Source: a virus
Reading direction: 5' to 3' (one strand)
IMG/VR virus record: IMGVR_UViG_3300030393_000016
Location: 1 to 53,564 of that record
DNA length: 53,564 nt
Part shown: piece after piece, positions 1-53,564 of the stretch
Numbering within the stretch: position 1 is the first letter of the stretch
How the letters are laid out: each line of letters begins with the position of its first letter
Position numbers and translations under genes: made by a program
Notes under the pieces: model-generated
Told to the model about the DNA's origin: nothing
What the model saw: the letters and a program-made list of their open reading frames with translations, nothing else
Database searches by the model: none

Positions 1-2109
1 ATGAAGTATATCCATTTTTTATTACTTATTACTTTAATAAGCTGTAAGGGTCAAAACACAAAATCGTTAGATGATAAACATACTAATGATCTTATACATG
101 AAACTAGCCCTTACTTATTACAACATGCTCATAATCCTGTAAACTGGAATGCTTGGAATGATGAAGTTTTGGCTAAGGCTAAAACTGAAAACAAACTTAT
201 ACTTATTAGTGTTGGTTATTCTGCTTGTCATTGGTGTCATGTTATGGAACATGAGAGCTTCGAAGATATATCGGTCGCGAAGGTTATGAATGATAACTTT
301 ATTAATATAAAGGTAGATCGAGAGGAACGCCCAGATGTAGACAAGGTATACATGAATGCGGTACAACTTATGACTGGTAGTGGTGGTTGGCCTATGAATG
401 TTATAGCTTTACCTGACGGGAGACCTATTTGGGGTGGTACTTATTTTAGAAAAAAGGAATGGGTTAGTGCTTTAAATCAGATATCGAAAGTATATACTGA
501 AGATCCTGATACATTATATGAGTATGCTGATAAATTAGAGCAAGGTATTAAATCGTTAGATATTGTTCAACTAAATACTAATGAACCCGTTTTTAATAAA
601 GGCTTTATAAAGAGTACTGTTAAAAAATGGTCTAGACATTTTGACCCTAATAATGGTGGTACTAATAGAGCTCCTAAGTTTATGATGCCTAATAATCTTC
701 ATTTTTTATTGCGATATGCTTACCAGACTAATGACGTTAAATTGCAAAATTATGTAAACTTAACACTTACAAAAATTGCTTATGGTGGTGTTTTTGACCA
801 AATTGGCGGCGGATTTTCTAGATATTCTGTTGATAATAAGTGGCATGTACCACATTTTGAGAAAATGTTGTACGATAATGGTCAGTTAGTGAGTTTATAT
901 GCCGACGCTTATCTTATTACAAAAAACAAACTATATAAAGATGTTGTTATTGAGACTTTAAAATATGCTAAACGAAACATGACTACCGATAATGGGGCTT
1001 TTTATTCATCATTAGATGCTGATAGCAATAACACTGATGGTAATCTTGAAGAAGGGGCTTTTTATGTTTGGAATAAAGTTCAATTAAAGCATATTTTAGG
1101 CGAAGAAGATTTTAAAATTTTTAAAGATTACTATAACATTAATAATTACGGACATTGGGAACATGGTAAATATGTACTTATCAGGAAGGATGACGATGCT
1201 TCGATTATTAAGAAGCACAATATAACAAGTGTTGTTTTAGCTGAAAAGAAAGCAAAATGGAAAAACACCTTATTAAAGGAGCGTAATAAACGAGATCACC
1301 CTCGACTGGACGATAAAACCTTAACTTCTTGGAATGCTTTAATGCTTAAAGGCTATATTGATGCATATAGAGTTTTGGGTGATAAAGATTATTTAGCTGC
1401 CGCTAAAAAGAATGCTGACTTTATTATTAATAATCAATTACGAAAAAATGGTGGCTTAAACCATAGTTATAAAAATGGTAAAAGCACTGTTAATGGCTAT
1501 CTAGAAGATTATGCTACTACCATAGATGCTTTTATAGCGTTATATGAAAATACTCTCGATGAAAAATGGCTTACTACAGCTAGAGATTTAGCTACTTATA
1601 CCTTTAATCATTTTTATGATGAGAACAATAAGATGTTTTACTTTACTTCTAGCCAAGATAAATCTTTAATATCTAGAAATATGGAGTACAGAGATAATGT
1701 TATTCCTGCTAGTAATTCTATAATGGCTAAAAATTTATTTAAGCTATCTCATTATTTTGATGACAAACACTTCTCTGAAACGGCCATGACCATGCTTAAT
1801 AATGTAAAGCCCGAAATACAAAAGTATCCTTCAGGCTATTCTAACTGGTTAGACTTGATGCTAAATTACACAAACCCTTATTATGAAGTAGCTATTGTAG
1901 GGAATAATGCACAGCAAAAACTGGCAGCTTTAAACAGAACATATATACCTAATAAGTTAATTGTAGGTAGTACCATTGCTAACGACAAACTGCCATTATT
2001 ACAAAACAGGTATGACCCTAACAAAACACTTATATATGTATGTGTAAATAAAGCTTGCAAAATACCTGTTGAAGATGTAAACAAAGCTATTTTACTTTTA
2101 AATGAATAA
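1..2109 (+). CDS. DUF255 thioredoxin-fold lipoprotein (YyaL/SSP411 family)
   Basis: A 702-aa protein with a lipoprotein signal (lipobox LISC, Cys15), so probably exported and lipid-anchored. The N-terminal thioredoxin-like domain (about 30-190) carries the family signature: [14 protein letters not shown], then CHWCH at 76-80, then [10 protein letters not shown] and GGWPMN. The rest matches the six-hairpin glycosidase-like half of the SSP411/spermatogenesis-associated protein 20 family, with [12 protein letters not shown] and a [12 protein letters not shown] segment. Length is typical. The true substrate of this family is not settled; many members are annotated only as thioredoxin-domain proteins. 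The gene begins at base 1 with ATG, so its promoter is outside the window. It looks like host chromosome rather than element DNA. Confidence 0.9.
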
Positions 2110-2573: not shown

Positions 2574-2623
2574 ATTTTTAATACCTTGGCAAACCAATTC
2601 ATTAAATCCAACTAAATGAAAAA
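2574..2623 (+). repeat. 50-bp leader repeat, copy 1 (overlaps a start codon)
   Basis: About 50 bp ending in CATTAAATCCAACTAAATGAAAAA. It is repeated at 3659-3708 with most positions identical (shared ATTCATTARATCCAACTAA, then ATGAAAAA). In this copy the ATG is the start of the AbiC-like gene at 2616. The same CCAACTAA string stands 3 bases before the ATG of the lipoprotein gene read leftward from 8130. Confidence 0.65.
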
Positions 2624-3359
2624 CAACATATCAAACTATCATAAAATAGATTATAAACCAGCAATAATAATTACTATTATTATCATTATAACTTGTTTTA
2701 TATGGGGTACATTGGTCCTATTACCTCCGATAATTCCTTATTATGATTTCACAAATACTGGTCAACTAGGTGATACCATAGGAGGACTTACCTCTCCGAT
2801 AATTGGTATTGGTGGGGCATTTCTAGTATATGTATCTTTTCAGGCACAATTAAAGGCTAACAAAATGCAATGGGAAGCTTTTAATAAAGAAATTCATAAC
2901 CAAAATGCAGATAGATTTTACAATAAAAACTATGAATCAATAAAAGAATTTAAATCAAATTTAAATAACATAGAATTCTCTTGTCCAACTCCTGATAATA
3001 AAACTAACATAGTTTCAAATCAATACATCAATTATAAAGGATTTGATTCTATATCAATAGTTTCAGCTATAATTAGTGATCAAAATAAAAGCCAAACTGA
3101 AAACATATCCATTAGTACGTACCTTTCAAAACTAAGCTTAATCTTTTTAGATTTAGACCTAACAATTATGTCTATTAATAAAAATAAAGACTTATATACA
3201 GATGAATGTAAAGAATTAAAAGAAATTATAGCCTATATTAAAAGGTATCATTTAAACCTTTATTTTCATAATCTACTTGAGGAGCTTGAAGATGATAACT
3301 CATTTAAAGAATACATTTCCAAAATCTATAGTAGTATTGAAAATTGGGTAGCTAATTAA
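2616..3359 (+). CDS. AbiC-like membrane protein (putative phage abortive infection family)
   Basis: A 247-aa protein with two hydrophobic segments near the N-terminus (about 16-37 and 60-75) separated by a GQLGDTIGGLTSPIIG loop. A soluble, charged C-terminal part follows FQAQLKANKMQWE. A loop of this form (GxxGDxxGGxxxPI) between two membrane segments and a following FQxQ is what I recall for the putative phage abortive infection (putAbiC) family; those proteins are thought to arrest or kill infected cells from the inner membrane. The call rests on architecture and this motif only. It lies left of the first tRNA-His fragment, so outside the tandem elements as I define them. Start chosen at ATG 2616 after the CCAACTAA leader. 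Confidence 0.6.
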   Translation: MKNNISNYHKIDYKPAIIITIIIIITCFIWGTLVLLPPIIPYYDFTNTGQLGDTIGGLTSPIIGIGGAFLVYVSFQAQLKANKMQWEAFNKEIHNQNADRFYNKNYESIKEFKSNLNNIEFSCPTPDNKTNIVSNQYINYKGFDSISIVSAIISDQNKSQTENISISTYLSKLSLIFLDLDLTIMSINKNKDLYTDECKELKEIIAYIKRYHLNLYFHNLLEELEDDNSFKEYISKIYSSIENWVAN

Positions 3360-3373
3360 ACACTCTAAAAAAC

Positions 3374-3403
3374 AAAAAAGCCCTACGAAAAAATCGTAGG
3401 GCT
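3374..3403 (-). terminator. Terminator following the tRNA-His 3' half, copy 1
   Basis: Read on the minus strand: stem AGCCCTACGA / TCGTAGGGCT followed by TTTTTTGTTTTTT. It directly follows the acceptor end of the partial tRNA-His. This supports the idea that the fragment is the displaced 3' end of a real tRNA transcription unit. Confidence 0.85.
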
Positions 3404-3404
3404 G

Positions 3405-3450
3405 AAAGGGTGAAAGAGGGGTCTCGAACCCCCGACCTTCGGTACCACAA
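3405..3450 (-). repeat. 3' half of tRNA-His, copy 1 (probable attachment site)
   Basis: Read on the minus strand this is TTGTGGTACCGA (anticodon loop with GTG and the 3' anticodon strand), then the variable region AGGTC, a T-arm GGGGG-TTCGAGA-CCCCT and the acceptor strand CTTTCAC. The 5' half (it should begin GTGAAAG and give a TCGGT strand) is missing: the sequence before the loop does not pair. The 46 bp are identical to 6893-6938. Similarity continues weakly for about 25 bp on the far side, which fits related attP sequences. Known biology: tyrosine integrases often use tRNA 3' halves as att cores. Confidence 0.85.
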
Positions 3451-3545
3451 CATAGGCACCTTATTCCCACTACCCTATCAGTCCCTGAAAAACAGAATAT
3501 TACACAATTAATATTATTAATATATTATCTATTTACAATACATTC

Positions 3546-3567
3546 CGTACTGGTTAACGTACTAGTT
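3546..3567 (+). other. Tandem CGTACTGGTTAA motif, left end of small element
   Basis: Two adjacent units, CGTACTGGTTAA and CGTACTAGTT. The same pair (21 of 22 bases) occurs in the same orientation at 6792-6813. Both lie about 100 bp inside the tRNA-His fragments that bound the 3.4-6.9 kb element, which is the arrangement expected of recombinase arm sites. That role is inferred. Confidence 0.55.
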
Positions 3568-3612
3568 AATTAATAGTAAGTACAGATAACAAATTAAACG
3601 TTTATATTGTAA

Positions 3613-3644
3613 TAATAAAATAGCAAATATTTGCTATTTTATTA
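3613..3644. other. 32-bp perfect palindrome
   Basis: Left arm TAATAAAATAGCAAAT is followed directly by its reverse complement, centred between 3628 and 3629. It lies in the 501-bp gap 3360-3860, otherwise occupied by the tRNA-His fragment, the tandem motif and a leader repeat. It could be a cruciform, an operator or a bidirectional terminator (AT-only flanks make termination weak). Confidence 0.6.
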
Positions 3645-3658
3645 AGTCATTAATTTCA

Positions 3659-3708
3659 ATTTTAATAACTTAGAGAAACTAATTCATTAGATCCAACTAA
3701 ATGAAAAA
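3659..3708 (+). repeat. 50-bp leader repeat, copy 2
   Basis: Second copy of 2574-2623, again ending in ATCCAACTAA-ATGAAAAA. It leads into a 47-codon open frame at 3701 rather than a large gene. Confidence 0.6.
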
Positions 3709-3844
3709 TTATTATCTATCTCCAATGATGGTGCCTTCTTGTACCCGTCTATGTGTTTTAAAGTACTTTAAAATTTATACTACAATGTCTTCTAATTTAT
3801 CCATTAGTATAAATATTATACAATATCCTACTCTATTTTACTAA
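3701..3844 (+). CDS. Possible 47-aa small protein
   Basis: Open frame of 47 codons starting with the ATG of the leader repeat (MKNYYLSPMM...) and ending 16 bp before the nuclease gene at 3861. No domain is recognisable, and it is not clearly a membrane or signal peptide. Support is limited to the start context shared with the gene at 2616 and to its position in front of the nuclease. It may be a leader peptide, or a chance frame in a duplicated leader. Confidence 0.25.
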   Translation: MKNYYLSPMMVPSCTRLCVLKYFKIYTTMSSNLSISINIIQYPTLFY

Positions 3845-3860
3845 AATAAAATCACAGAAC

Positions 3861-5438
3861 ATGGAACACACCATCTCAAAAGAACAAAATGACTGGGCAA
3901 ATAAAATTAATGGTGATCCCATTCATATCGAAAATGCAGAAAGTGGCTTAAAAGGTTATTTCTGTATGGGATGTAATAAAGAAATGCAAGCAGTAAAACC
4001 TCGCGAAAAACAATCATATTTCAGACATCATGCTTTTAATGTTGATAAAAGTAATATTGAATGTGTTTATAGTAGTAGAAAGTATCGAGAAAAACTAGCT
4101 GAAGATATTTTACATCGACTAAAAGAACTAAATGTACCTTCTGTTTACAAATACCCTCCTCCTGGAGTGCAGGGAACTCCAAACTTATTAATGAAAAAAA
4201 GTTTAATACAGGCTTCAAAAGTAAAATCTCAACTAACTTTCTATGAAGATAGAAATGGAAATATCCAATATGGTAAAAATCCTGAGATAGAAGACCGTTA
4301 TCTCTTAATACGACCTGATATAACTTTTTTTGATAATGAAAATAATCCTACCCTATTTATTGAATTTGTTATCACTCATAAATTAAACGACGAGAAAAAA
4401 ATTAAATTAAAACGGTTAGGAATTAATACTATCCAAGTTATAATCCCTAAAGTTCCAGAAGAAGAACTAGAAAAAAAAATCAAAGCAACTCTTAACATTA
4501 AATGGGTATATAATGAACTCGAAGCAAACACCAAGTATATATCAACTTCCGAAAGAAAAACAGAGGGAATATCACCAGTTGATGAAGAGCAAAGAAAGCT
4601 TTTTACAGAATCTGTCGATTGCAGATCAGCGCAAATTAAAAATCTTATACGATCAATTAACGGACTCTTGGAATCTCAATCATACAGAAAAGCTGAACAA
4701 CACTTTGAACGAGAAATATCAAGAATTGAGGAGGCTACAGCAAACGAAAAATCAGAATTGGAACAAATGGAAAGGCAACTTGAGAGAGAAGTGCTTTCAG
4801 AATTTGAAGGAGAAGAACTCAACATTATCCAAAGAAGAAGAAACCTTGAAAAAGAAGAGGACTGGCTTCAACAATACTCTTCAAGAATGGGCAGAAGATA
4901 TAGTAGAAAAAAAGAAGAAATTAGAGGGGAAGAAAAATCACTATCTAAAAATATCAAAACAGCCCTCAAGTCTGAATCAACTGAAGCAGGAATTAGAACA
5001 AAATTTGAATCTGAAAAAGAAAGAATTAGAAGAAGTCTCGAAGAAGAAAGAGAGCGTATTAAGCTCATTAGCGATTATGAAACAGAAAAAATCGAGTTCC
5101 TTAGCCAACTTAAGAGAAACGCTCAAAATGACTTTGAACAACGAAGAAAAGAGCTTGAAAGAGCTAAAGAACAAATTGAATATAAAATCCGAAATTTTGG
5201 AGAAATTCAAAAAGAAGAAGAAAGAAAAATTATCATTGGAGAGGAAGAGTATAGAAAAGAATTTGCTAGACAAATTAATAATAGAGACGCTTCAGGAAAT
5301 CCCGAATTGTCCGAAAGAATTAACCCAATACTTAAAGCTACAAGATTTTTACGCAATTACAATGAAAGAAAAAACACTTTCGAGAGATATCGATCACACC
5401 TTGATATTGTTAGAAAAGGAACTTGGAAGTCATGGTAA
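3861..5438 (+). CDS. CoiA-like nuclease with long coiled-coil tail
   Basis: 525 aa. The N-terminal part matches the competence CoiA-like family: a zinc-ribbon-like segment (C35, C38, H56, H57, C68) and a PD-(D/E)xK-type nuclease core with RPDITFF (D153) and LFIEFVITHK (E168, K174). From about 230 it becomes a charged coiled coil rich in Glu, Lys and Arg up to a basic C-terminus. Family members are thought to act on DNA during uptake or recombination; in a mobile element a defence role is plausible but inferred. A second long frame overlaps 4513-5478, but third-position GC in a sampled stretch (about 22 versus 45 percent) favours this frame. It converges with the TIR gene. Confidence 0.75.
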   Translation: MEHTISKEQNDWANKINGDPIHIENAESGLKGYFCMGCNKEMQAVKPREKQSYFRHHAFNVDKSNIECVYSSRKYREKLAEDILHRLKELNVPSVYKYPPPGVQGTPNLLMKKSLIQASKVKSQLTFYEDRNGNIQYGKNPEIEDRYLLIRPDITFFDNENNPTLFIEFVITHKLNDEKKIKLKRLGINTIQVIIPKVPEEELEKKIKATLNIKWVYNELEANTKYISTSERKTEGISPVDEEQRKLFTESVDCRSAQIKNLIRSINGLLESQSYRKAEQHFEREISRIEEATANEKSELEQMERQLEREVLSEFEGEELNIIQRRRNLEKEEDWLQQYSSRMGRRYSRKKEEIRGEEKSLSKNIKTALKSESTEAGIRTKFESEKERIRRSLEEERERIKLISDYETEKIEFLSQLKRNAQNDFEQRRKELERAKEQIEYKIRNFGEIQKEEERKIIIGEEEYRKEFARQINNRDASGNPELSERINPILKATRFLRNYNERKNTFERYRSHLDIVRKGTWKSW

Positions 5439-5506
5439 AGATTACAAATGGTTCTGTGAAAATATAGAATCTAATTAATAATATACCCTCTACATATATA
5501 AAATAG

Positions 5507-5540
5507 TAAAAGTTGCCAAGTAGCAACTTTTATTATTTTA
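5507..5540 (+). terminator. Bidirectional terminator between convergent genes
   Basis: Stem AAAAGTTGC / GCAACTTTT with loop CAAGTA, T-rich on both strands. It lies between the nuclease gene (ends 5438) and the stop of the leftward TIR gene (5549). Confidence 0.8.
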
Positions 5541-5548
5541 TGTAGGAC

Positions 5549-6292
5549 CTATTCAAAACTATAATTAGCTTCATCTGCAGAGATCCCACCATCAGACAAT
5601 CCTGGTCCATTTTTTGACCTTCTCGGGTAACCATGCGCTCTAGGTGTTCTAGATACCTCATCACTCCTATCTGAATAAAGAGGGTTGCCTTTTAAACTTT
5701 GATTGGCTACAAATTTTAAGGTATTAACATTAGATCTAGTTAAATTAAGAAGTTCTTCTAATAGCTCTCTATCTGGTCTTTCTATAGATTCTGTTTTTTC
5801 TGTATTATTACTTTCTTTAATAATTTTTTCAATACTATCTTTTAATTCTGGAAAAGATCTTTCAAATGTCTTATTAAAAATTTCATCCGAAATACGTGCT
5901 TCTCCCAATTGAATATTAACTGTTCTTAAAAGTATTTTAAAATCTTCTTTATCAAAATCAGTAAGTTGAAACATACTAGTAGGTCCTTTTACTTGTGCTT
6001 TACTTACATTAAACAACAATGGACATACTCTTGCTTGATCCAACCTATTAGATAATGCACCTGCTTCAAAATGAAGCCAGGGACTATCTAAATTTTCGGG
6101 TGTTAAACAAATAATACCTATGGTACTCTCTTCTAGTTTTTTTGAAATATCACTTTGCCACTTATTACCCTTCTCAATATCATCTGGTGTAAAATATGGT
6201 TTTACTGCTTGTAAAACACTTGGTAGCCACCCCTTTAAAACCTTTGCTATTTCTTTACTAGTATTACCTGACCAACTTATAAATATCTTCAT
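5549..6292 (-). CDS. TIR-domain protein
   Basis: 247 aa. It begins MKIFISWSG, the usual first strand of bacterial TIR domains. It continues with KWQSDISKKLEESTIGIICLTPENL and WLHFEAGAL, where E76 is at the position of the catalytic Glu of NAD-cleaving TIRs. The TIR domain covers about 1-140. The rest holds a helical segment and a polar, low-complexity C-terminus (PRAHGYPRRSKNGPG). Known biology: many bacterial TIR proteins deplete NAD or make signalling nucleotides during phage infection. No SMODS or Thoeris ThsA-like partner is adjacent, so the partner, if any, could be the CoiA-like nuclease (inference). Confidence 0.85.
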   Translation of the reverse strand: MKIFISWSGNTSKEIAKVLKGWLPSVLQAVKPYFTPDDIEKGNKWQSDISKKLEESTIGIICLTPENLDSPWLHFEAGALSNRLDQARVCPLLFNVSKAQVKGPTSMFQLTDFDKEDFKILLRTVNIQLGEARISDEIFNKTFERSFPELKDSIEKIIKESNNTEKTESIERPDRELLEELLNLTRSNVNTLKFVANQSLKGNPLYSDRSDEVSRTPRAHGYPRRSKNGPGLSDGGISADEANYSFE

Positions 6293-6790
6293 TTTTTATT
6301 TCCTATTTTAGACTTAATCAAAGATATTTTTAGACGAATCATTAGTTCCCAATATATTATTCCACTTGACTATGTAATTTAAATGTTCTGTATTCATAAT
6401 TACTTAATAATTAAATTTAGTTGTGTACAATTTAACACTTTAGATTAAACCTTAAAAGCTAATCTTAATAATAATTGTACAACATACTTTAATACTAATT
6501 ATGATAGTTACTTTGCCATCTATAGTTTGAATGAAGACTTAAACATTCTTTCTTAACGGCATTCGGGTTACCTATCCAAGAGTCGTTTACAATTAAAAAA
6601 CGTAAAAACTTATTAATCAAATATATACGCTTTAAATAAATACTGAAAATTAACTAAAAATCTATCTCTAATTTCCTAGGCTGTAAAATGGTTACAGAGT
6701 TCTGTATATTTCTTTATCTTTTGAAAAACAAATGATTACAAAAAAACATTGATTAATACTTCTTTTATTTTATTTAAAATAGACCTTTCA
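6293..6790. other. AT-rich gap without recognisable genes
   Basis: No open frame with coding character is seen. The stretch contains the upstream region of the TIR gene and scattered short inverted repeats (GTACAATT and AATTGTAC near 6433 and 6475). The remainder of the gap up to 7130 holds the listed att, terminator and repeat sites. Confidence 0.6.
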
Positions 6791-6791
6791 A

Positions 6792-6813
6792 CGTACTGGT
6801 TAACGTACTGGTT
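6792..6813 (+). other. Tandem CGTACTGGTTAA motif, right end of small element
   Basis: CGTACTGGTTAA followed by CGTACTGGTT, matching 3546-3567 at 21 of 22 positions in the same orientation. It lies about 80 bp inside the second tRNA-His fragment. I see no further copy elsewhere in the window. Confidence 0.55.
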
Positions 6814-6842
6814 TTAAAAGGTACATACTTAACCATTGAGCA

Positions 6843-6882
6843 TAAAAAAAAGCTAAAGCCCAGTAAACACTGAGCTTTAGCT
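6843..6882 (-). terminator. Terminator following the tRNA-His 3' half, copy 2
   Basis: Minus strand: 14-bp stem AGCTAAAGCTCAGT / ACTGGGCTTTAGCT with one mismatch, loop GTTT, then eight T. Different in sequence from the terminator of copy 1, so each tRNA fragment has its own terminator. Confidence 0.85.
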
Positions 6883-6892
6883 AACATTTTTA

Positions 6893-6938
6893 AAAGGGTG
6901 AAAGAGGGGTCTCGAACCCCCGACCTTCGGTACCACAA
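6893..6938 (-). repeat. 3' half of tRNA-His, copy 2 (probable att junction of prophage and small element)
   Basis: 46 bp identical to 3405-3450, again lacking the 5' half of the tRNA. Beyond the anticodon loop the plus-strand sequence ATAGATGCCCTACTCTCACTA resembles the same region of copy 1 but not a tRNA-His 5' half. Taken as the left end of the prophage; the intact tRNA is expected right of the integrase gene, beyond the window. Confidence 0.8.
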
Positions 6939-6973: not shown

Positions 6974-7100
6974 GATTATCAAGTAATTACATTTAAGCCA
7001 AATTTGAAATTTATACTGTTTTTTTATATTACATTACCTTTTACATTGTCGTTTTTGAGTGTATATTTTAGTATGATATTTCGCAGATAATCAAGTATTT
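6974..7100 (+). repeat. Direct repeats GATWATCAAGTAWTT near prophage left end
   Basis: GATTATCAAGTAATT at 6974-6988 and GATAATCAAGTATTT at 7086-7100: 12 to 13 of 15 bases shared, same orientation, 112 bp apart. They lie just inside the att copy, where arm-type integrase sites are usually found. The role is inferred. Confidence 0.45.
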
Positions 7101-8157: not shown

Positions 8158-8505
8158 TTATTTAGTTTTTTTAGTTATTAGTTCTAGTATGCGTTCCTGT
8201 ATATCTTCATCTTCTAAATATCTCATCAACATTTCCTTCCCAGGGTCTGATGTTGATTCTTGTATCACATTAGTATTTTCATTTATGTATAACTTTTTAG
8301 AAGTATCTCCAAAAAGAAGCCAATCCACATCTAAATCAGGGATGCTTTCTTTAAGCTGACGAAGAATATTCATCCCTAAAGCTCTTTCTCCATTAATTAT
8401 ATTGGACATTCCACTATAATTAAGATTATTTTTTTCACAAAACTTCCTTAAGGTAACACCCTGACTACCAATAACTTCCCTTAATCTACTTCCTGTATTA
8501 TCCAT
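8158..8505 (-). CDS. Phage repressor-like XRE regulator
   Basis: 115 aa. HTH of the XRE type at about 15-45 (GVTLRKFCEKNNLNYSGMSNIINGERALG), then DLDVDWLLFGD and a helical C-terminus ending in lysines. It lacks a LexA-like peptidase domain, so RecA-driven self-cleavage is not expected from this protein alone. It is the first gene of the leftward unit, divergent from the early gene at 8662, and the intervening DNA holds paired CATATATGT sites. Best candidate for the lysogeny repressor. Confidence 0.75.
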   Translation of the reverse strand: MDNTGSRLREVIGSQGVTLRKFCEKNNLNYSGMSNIINGERALGMNILRQLKESIPDLDVDWLLFGDTSKKLYINENTNVIQESTSDPGKEMLMRYLEDEDIQERILELITKKTK

Positions 8506-52316: not shown

Positions 52317-53564
52317 TGGTAAGCAATTACCTGTTACTTTACTCTCATTAGTAGTAGGGGCAAATGTATTGGTCATAGAGCGAACACTATTCATTTCTCT
52401 ATTCGAATAACCTACATCGTAATGTTTTTTAATCATTGCAGTTGATGTATGCCCTGCTGCTTTTGCAGCATCCTTGGCCGATCTACGTTCGGCAATCTCT
52501 GTAAGGTTACTATGTTTTAAGCTGTAAATATCTGCTGTAATGTTCAGTTTCTTTTTTACATGCTCTCTCCATCTACGAGTAACCTGATCGCGCCTGATGC
52601 GTTGCTCTCCAGGAACAAGACCTACCGAAAATATATAATCTCCTTTTTTAGCCCCTAACAACGCTTTTTCCCAATAGGGTACAGCTATTTTTTTTATAGG
52701 CAATATTTTTATTTTAGGCTTCCCTCCTTTCAATACTTCTACTTTTAGCTCGAGGTTGATTAAATCAACATCTTCATATTTTACCTTCAGTAATTCTACC
52801 TCTCTACATCCTGAATGAAAGAATACATTACAAAATAACATAAAGTTAGGATAGTTTACACTAAGATGGTTCTGTATCAGCTTACGCTGTGTTGCTGTTA
52901 AAGTTTCTCGAGGTTGTATGATCGTCTTTTTTTTCTCATAACCTTCCATTGGATTAATTTTTATAATCCCTTTATGTTTAAGTATTGAAAAAAGACGATG
53001 CAGATATCCCTGATATTTATTGTATCTCTTATCAGAGAGCTTCCTTACATTTCTCACAAGGTTATCCATTATTAAATCAATATGCACTCCTATAATAGTA
53101 TTTACAGGGGCATAATCGTACTTTAATTGTACAGCTGATTCAATAAAGTATTTTAAGACAGAACGAAAATCTTTTTTAGTATCTCCTTCATAGCGTGCTA
53201 ACTCAATTCCTAGTGCTAAAGCATCTTTTAAAGGCATAGTACCATCTAGTTTTGCTTTACTACCATTAATCTTAGTAGGCATAAAAATTTTAGTAATAGG
53301 ATTGAATCCCTCTTTCTCTAGTAGTATAGGTATCTGATCTAATAGAAGTCTTATAGCTTCTTTTCTTCCCTCAAGAGTTTTAATTTTATTAAGCTTTTTT
53401 CTAAAAGGAAAACCATTGGGATACTTTTCTTTAAAAGCAGGGTCATAGAAATTACACTGAATATACCAATTATCATTTAAAGCCGACTTAGCTTTAACTG
53501 TTTTCCAGTTTTTAGGTGATACCCATATATCCGAAAATGAGCATCCATTAAAAGTTTTTGTCAT
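52281..53564 (-). CDS. int: Tyrosine recombinase (phage integrase)
   Basis: 427 aa, complete (ATG at 53564). The N-terminal arm/core-binding part reaches to about 210. Catalytic part: HSGCREVELL with Arg I, a Lys in the beta-hairpin (LKGGKPK), YSLKHSNLTE where the usual HxLRH reads YSLKH, so Arg II is shifted or replaced as in many Bacteroidota integrases, and GHTSTAMIKKHYDVGY with the nucleophile Tyr. A 40-residue tail follows the Tyr. Probably recombines within the tRNA-His 3' half. Its promoter is outside the window. Confidence 0.9.
   Translation of the reverse strand: MTKTFNGCSFSDIWVSPKNWKTVKAKSALNDNWYIQCNFYDPAFKEKYPNGFPFRKKLNKIKTLEGRKEAIRLLLDQIPILLEKEGFNPITKIFMPTKINGSKAKLDGTMPLKDALALGIELARYEGDTKKDFRSVLKYFIESAVQLKYDYAPVNTIIGVHIDLIMDNLVRNVRKLSDKRYNKYQGYLHRLFSILKHKGIIKINPMEGYEKKKTIIQPRETLTATQRKLIQNHLSVNYPNFMLFCNVFFHSGCREVELLKVKYEDVDLINLELKVEVLKGGKPKIKILPIKKIAVPYWEKALLGAKKGDYIFSVGLVPGEQRIRRDQVTRRWREHVKKKLNITADIYSLKHSNLTEIAERRSAKDAAKAAGHTSTAMIKKHYDVGYSNREMNSVRSMTNTFAPTTNESKVTGNCLPLNDFRFNFNLK

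Follow-up and report, generated by a model that had tools for sequence, protein, structure and literature searches.

An integrase-less island and a Labanvirus-like prophage stacked at one tRNA-His gene

Cis-mobilizable elements (CIMEs) keep their attL and attR sites, are devoid of integrase and transfer genes, and are accreted in tandem to an integrative element (PMC5704250). Composite excision has been reported for a tandem at a tRNA-Lys gene, even though the two integrases involved are under 30% identical and the att sites differ greatly (PMC5704250). Here we describe a tandem at a tRNA-His gene in IMG/VR record IMGVR_UViG_3300030393_000016, of which the whole stretch of 53,564 bp was analysed (hereafter, the window). 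The window corresponds to C12:247-53810 of a host genome of 2.52 Mb in 22 contigs, estimated to be 83.8% complete, and starts 246 bp from a contig end. The host genus is presumably Flavobacterium, judging from the Flavobacterium phage relatives of the prophage. The locus comprises, in this order, the chromosome, a first tRNA-His fragment, a small island (element B), a second tRNA-His fragment, a prophage, an intact tRNA-His, and a PIG-L-type gene. The stacked insertion could be confirmed by sequence alone, and both ends were fixed for the Labanvirus-like prophage and for the small defence-like island. We consider it likely that element B is a CIME-like remnant which derives from an earlier integrated element, and that the prophage accreted later at the same tRNA-His.

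Attachment sites at the tRNA-His gene

The first-pass annotation reported two identical 46-bp tRNA-His 3' halves in the window, and both were found on the minus strand, at 3405-3450 (fragment 1) and 6893-6938 (fragment 2). No other match to tRNA-His in the window is significant (E values of 6e-20 and 1e-20 for the two halves; next best, 0.18). As ARAGORN detected zero tRNAs inside the window, both copies are 5'-truncated, in agreement with the reported lack of a 5' half. Both start at the anticodon loop (TTGTGG), as had been noticed, and so do the second halves present in three related species (G009, G032, and G033). Fragment 1 is the left attachment site of element B and represents the original chromosomal half. 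Fragment 2, at the junction between element B and the prophage, is the prophage left attachment site and places the left end of the prophage near 6.9 kb, where it had been predicted. A terminator on the minus strand had also been proposed for each copy, and terminator-like hairpins are present on this strand on the 3' sides of both, at 3379-3403 (AGCCCTACGAAAAAATCGTAGGGCT) and at 6851-6882. The second of these forms the right-hand limit of the element B non-coding region beside fragment 2 and was compared with the phage hairpin. A third terminator-like hairpin is located between the intact tRNA-His and the prophage integrase, P0004. The hairpin at 3379-3403 is similar to those located 3' of the distal fragments in G009, G032, and G033 and probably represents the terminator of the chromosomal tRNA-His.

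An intact tRNA-His had been predicted to the right of position 53,564. The gene is present beside the integrase, as a tRNA-His(GTG) on the minus strand at C12:53939-54013 (53693-53767 in window numbering, 128 bp past the window end); its 5' end, however, is GTGAATG instead of the predicted GTGAAAG. Three exact copies of the core are present in the 2.52-Mb genome, the third at C12:53941-53981. Dispersed repeats at unrelated places were looked for, and the core is absent from the genome beyond these three copies, all on the same contig. No degenerate further tRNA-His copy was found left of 3405, and Rfam gave no matches at the gathering threshold. In the host tRNA-His (L004:440-514), the acceptor stem includes a U-U mismatch, and a T31-A39 pair is present where the relatives examined exhibit A-T or T-G; A39 is common to all three tRNA-His cores.

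With regard to other genomes, the same tRNA-His is occupied in G009, G032, and G033 by single elements of approximately 32, 24, and 26 kb, which have their integrase directly after the tRNA and a second tRNA 3' half at the far end. As the fragments of these elements start at the same base, they support site-specific integration, the crossover being no earlier than where the anticodon loop begins. As far as these genomes indicate, tRNA-His is an integration hotspot. Together with the intact tRNA, these single elements support the earlier proposal that two elements are stacked at one tRNA-His. The three elements resemble the present locus in their target tRNA, fragment start, integrase position beside the tRNA, and tandem arm repeats. 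In contrast, they are unstacked and encode clade-II integrases, which are approximately 25-27% identical to P0004 and are found at tRNA-His and other tRNAs. Of 150 genomes of the genus, 147 have a PIG-L gene, which adjoins tRNA-His in the 20 loci examined; as it is near-universal and located beside tRNA-His, this gene serves as a marker for the ancestral tRNA side. The left-flank gene (window positions 1-2109), which was sought in order to find an empty site, was not found in stretches of up to 20 kb beside tRNA-His in 20 related genomes.

No tRNA-His fragment was found within the stretches examined in the remaining genomes of the genus, which have one to five intact tRNA-His genes each. In several genomes of the genus, this site has a tandem array of two to five intact tRNA-His genes (L062, L063, L066, L068, L070, and L071). 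Such arrays are compatible with a reading of the two fragments as the decayed remains of tRNA-His genes in tandem, or as dispersed repeats, and not as attachment sites. Nevertheless, the fragments have their first base at the same position in the anticodon loop, are spaced by 3.5 and 47 kb, and are flanked by paired arm repeats, their core is found nowhere else in the genome, and the intact tRNA is located beside the integrase, which makes this reading scarcely credible.

Gene content of the prophage and of element B

The Labanvirus-like prophage extends from 6939 to 53564 and continues for about 130 bp past the window to the intact tRNA-His, for a length of approximately 46.8 kb. Its tyrosine integrase P0004 (52281-53564, minus strand, 427 aa) matches Pfam PF00589 (E=3.5e-8) and a PHROG integrase family. 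The best match of P0004 among phage records is that of Cellulophaga phage phi46:1, at 36%, and no relatives were detected in IMG/VR by a peptide-pattern scan. The tape measure also exhibits a PHROG match. Of the proteins of Flavobacterium phage vB_FspS_laban6-1 (Duneviridae, Labanvirus), 15 were tested and 12 match the prophage with 28-64% identity, and the structural genes are in the same order, whereas the laban integrase exhibits no match to P0004. A search of IMG/VR for the excised phage form with a 25-bp junction pattern gave no match.

Element B measures 3,488 bp from core to core. Its ORFs of at least 200 aa comprise that of a 525-aa protein, an overlapping frame within this ORF, and a TIR gene. 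The first gene (3861-5438, plus strand) encodes the 525-aa protein, which is CoiA-like, has no Pfam match, and is defence-associated by context. Its closest relative found (47%) is located in a defence island of F. flabelliforme, another relative (27%) is annotated as CoiA family, and a peptide-pattern scan of IMG/VR revealed no relatives. The second gene (5549-6292, minus strand) encodes a 247-aa protein with a TIR domain (Pfam E=4.7e-10) and a PADLOC TIR-TM match over the first 194 residues. This protein has 41% identity over 202 aa to a protein encoded by E. coli phage P2_AC1, with which it has a PW..FEAGAL motif in common, and 38% identity to that of mEp390. The hairpin between the two convergent genes (5508-5531; AAAAGTTGCCAAGTAGCAACTTTT) is probably their shared terminator. 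Judging from this context, a defence role of the cargo is likely. No integrase was found in element B, and the Pfam and PADLOC searches revealed no recognisable regulator, packaging-hijack, or transfer genes. A candidate integrase remnant within element B (best E of 0.013 over 29 residues) was taken as a chance match. No larger relative of element B was found in searches that covered a subset of the genomes of the genus and family.

In the left chromosomal flank, a DsbH-like gene with a thioredoxin domain is accompanied by an ORF of 247 aa (2616-3359) with a hydrophobic N terminus. The product of this ORF has no Pfam, NCBIfam, or PADLOC match and, by eye, resembles abortive-infection membrane proteins. 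To the left of this ORF, a diverged tandem duplication of approximately 238 bp (2145-2620) exhibits a hairpin at the start of each unit. The 50-bp stretch before the ORF recurs at 82% in element B (3659-3708), and the 23-bp core of this stretch is found only in these two places in the genome.

Arm repeats and integrase lineages

In lambda-type tyrosine-recombinase systems, the N-terminal domain binds arm sites. Repeats that we predict to be such arm-type sites are present at both ends of each element. In element B, two 12-bp units are located on the left at 3543-3566 (minus strand; ACTAGTACGTTA and ACCAGTACGGAA; -116/-104 from the core) and two on the right at 6790-6815 (minus strand; AACCAGTACGTT; +84/+96 from the core). 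These two ends have an 18-nt exact match in common, whereas 300 dinucleotide shuffles reach 14 at most. In the prophage, the left repeats are located at 7028-7051 (minus strand; CGACAATGTAAA and AGGTAATGTAAT; -113/-101 from the core), and the right pair, at +73/+85 from the core, is located outside the window, at about L004:341-365. The prophage combines a tyrosine recombinase domain beside a tRNA with 12-bp arms, of the type found in its integrase clade, between the terminator and the start codon.

This clade (clade I) comprises integrases that are 31-46% identical to P0004 and that, elsewhere in the genus, adjoin tRNA-Met, tRNA-Arg, and tRNA-Asn, with tandem 12-bp repeats between the terminator and the integrase start. 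The repeats are of the CGGCAATGTAAA or CGGCAACCCTAA type in the closer integrases and of the CGTCAATAAAAA type in the most distant. Both ends were found for four clade-I elements (G261 and G113 at tRNA-Met, G025 at tRNA-Arg, and G091 at tRNA-Asn), and the motif recurs at the far end; the far arm copy of G025 was seen in the sequence but is under the scoring threshold, and that of G091 sits nearer the core. These observations point to a new feature of clade-I elements, which appear to exhibit 12-bp arm repeats at both ends with a motif that tracks the integrase lineage and not the tRNA. Arm repeats of this kind may help to assign integrase-less islands of the genus to an integrase type, and such an assignment makes the trans-mobilisation of these islands directly testable.

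Two further sites exhibit clade-I features. In G078:C181 (L242), the tRNA-His at 8237-8311 has P0004-type arm repeats (CGGTAATGTAAACGGTAATATAAA) just 3' of it, with no integrase after them; a clade-I element has probably been lost from this tRNA-His, with the repeats left as a scar. The host genome itself has a further integrase of clade I near a contig end, at G000:C12:232700-233923 (L264, minus strand, about 4730-6400), with 46% identity to P0004 and three in-frame TAA codons. It adjoins the 3' half of a tRNA-Met, and that of a tRNA-Asn is located approximately 300 bp away; the site is apparently another remnant attachment array.

The first-pass annotation had suggested that the two elements of the window have related attP sites and may share one integrase. 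The relatedness is supported by the layout and by the bases next to the core, 15 of 24 of which are common to both elements (p about 5e-4), with CCTTTTAAAAA after the core in both, so the attP sites are probably related. The same likeness, together with the common target tRNA, could also indicate that P0004 recognises both types of ends, the two elements sharing this integrase or travelling as a composite. As the tRNA-Lys composite was excised although its att sites are unlike (PMC5704250), unlike arms would still allow joint mobilisation by P0004. Nevertheless, the prophage ends exhibit CGGYAATGTAAA, which is the motif of its integrase clade, whereas the element B motif, AACCAGTACGTT, differs at both ends. 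Element B lacks CGGCAATGTAAA-type repeats at its ends and agrees with the P0004 clade in layout only, whereas the clade motif is kept among integrases that are only 35-46% identical and located at different tRNAs. The use of P0004 by both elements is thus disfavoured, and we regard it as quite improbable. As the motif follows the integrase lineage across tRNAs, that of element B points to an integrase other than P0004.

In clade II (L271-L300), the 12-bp tandem units are located in the first codons of the integrase, after the terminator T-run and the ATG. As these repeats are inside the integrase's own coding sequence, the att arm would also encode the integrase N terminus. An assignment of element B to clade II via the G032 arm (AACGAATACGTT, 10/12) was considered but not retained. 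When tandem units were roughly scanned against the element B motif, the best cyclic match was only 8/12 in 30 clade-II loci (6-7 in clade-I loci), and the clade-II left arms are located nearer the core (about -80) than the left arm of element B.

Origin of the tandem and comparison with known systems

Three cores, an intact tRNA, arm repeats, and no integrase in element B were observed at this locus. In the explanation that we prefer, an earlier element with a tyrosine integrase would have inserted via a crossover in the anticodon loop, rebuilding the tRNA 3' half and displacing the original one. Element B would be the leftover of this earlier element, with its two attachment ends and two defence-like genes and without an integrase. 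A Labanvirus-like temperate phage encoding P0004 would then have entered the restored tRNA-His by the same route, and element B would have become distal. As a newcomer at an intact tRNA displaces the older element, the distal position of element B suggests that it is the older of the two. P0004 would act on the prophage's own ends, which bear the arm repeats of its clade, and the ends of element B would have been made by another integrase of the same att layout, since lost. As the genome is estimated to be 83.8% complete, this cognate integrase could also be encoded in sequence that the assembly lacks. A clade-II integrase gene at G000:C21:1238-1771 (L301) lacks its 5' part; the C-terminal half that it encodes shares 60% identity with its G032 counterpart. 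This truncated gene suggests that a second integrase lineage was once present in the host genome.

Alternatively, element B could be a live, minimal defence island of 3.5 kb built without an integrase, exhibiting the clade-I att layout with its own arms, and mobilised in trans by an integrase with specificity for AACCAGTACGTT. This would be consistent with the intact state of both arm pairs and both cores, with the compact cargo (two complete ORFs that converge on a hairpin), and with the absence of integrase debris, which fits decay no better than integrase-less construction. However, neither a second copy of the arm motif nor a cognate integrase was found in 399 same-genus genomes, only two 2-mismatch hits, with no integrase match nearby, were obtained in 397 same-family genomes, and IMG/VR yielded no exact match. 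As a single example cannot demonstrate mobility either, we consider it unlikely that element B is a live island of this kind. Sixteen relaxed hits to the motif in IMG/VR were rejected, as they have no integrase match nearby and resemble repetitive coding sequence.

Several known systems can be compared with element B as a leftover of an earlier insertion. PICI- and P4-like phage satellites have their own integrase, regulator, and packaging-hijack genes, none of which is recognisable in element B with Pfam and PADLOC. The TIR genes of the Escherichia phages P2_AC1 and mEp390 have the TIR domain in common with the element B protein, whereas the TIR gene described here is located in a 3.5-kb island adjoining a prophage. 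CIME tandems have an ICE or an IME as neighbour, whereas the neighbour of element B is a prophage. As in a CIME, attL and attR are kept in element B, with identical cores and paired arm repeats, and integrase and transfer genes are absent. As in CIME accretion, the later element sits at the restored tRNA end, and the stacked insertion described here represents a known kind of arrangement.
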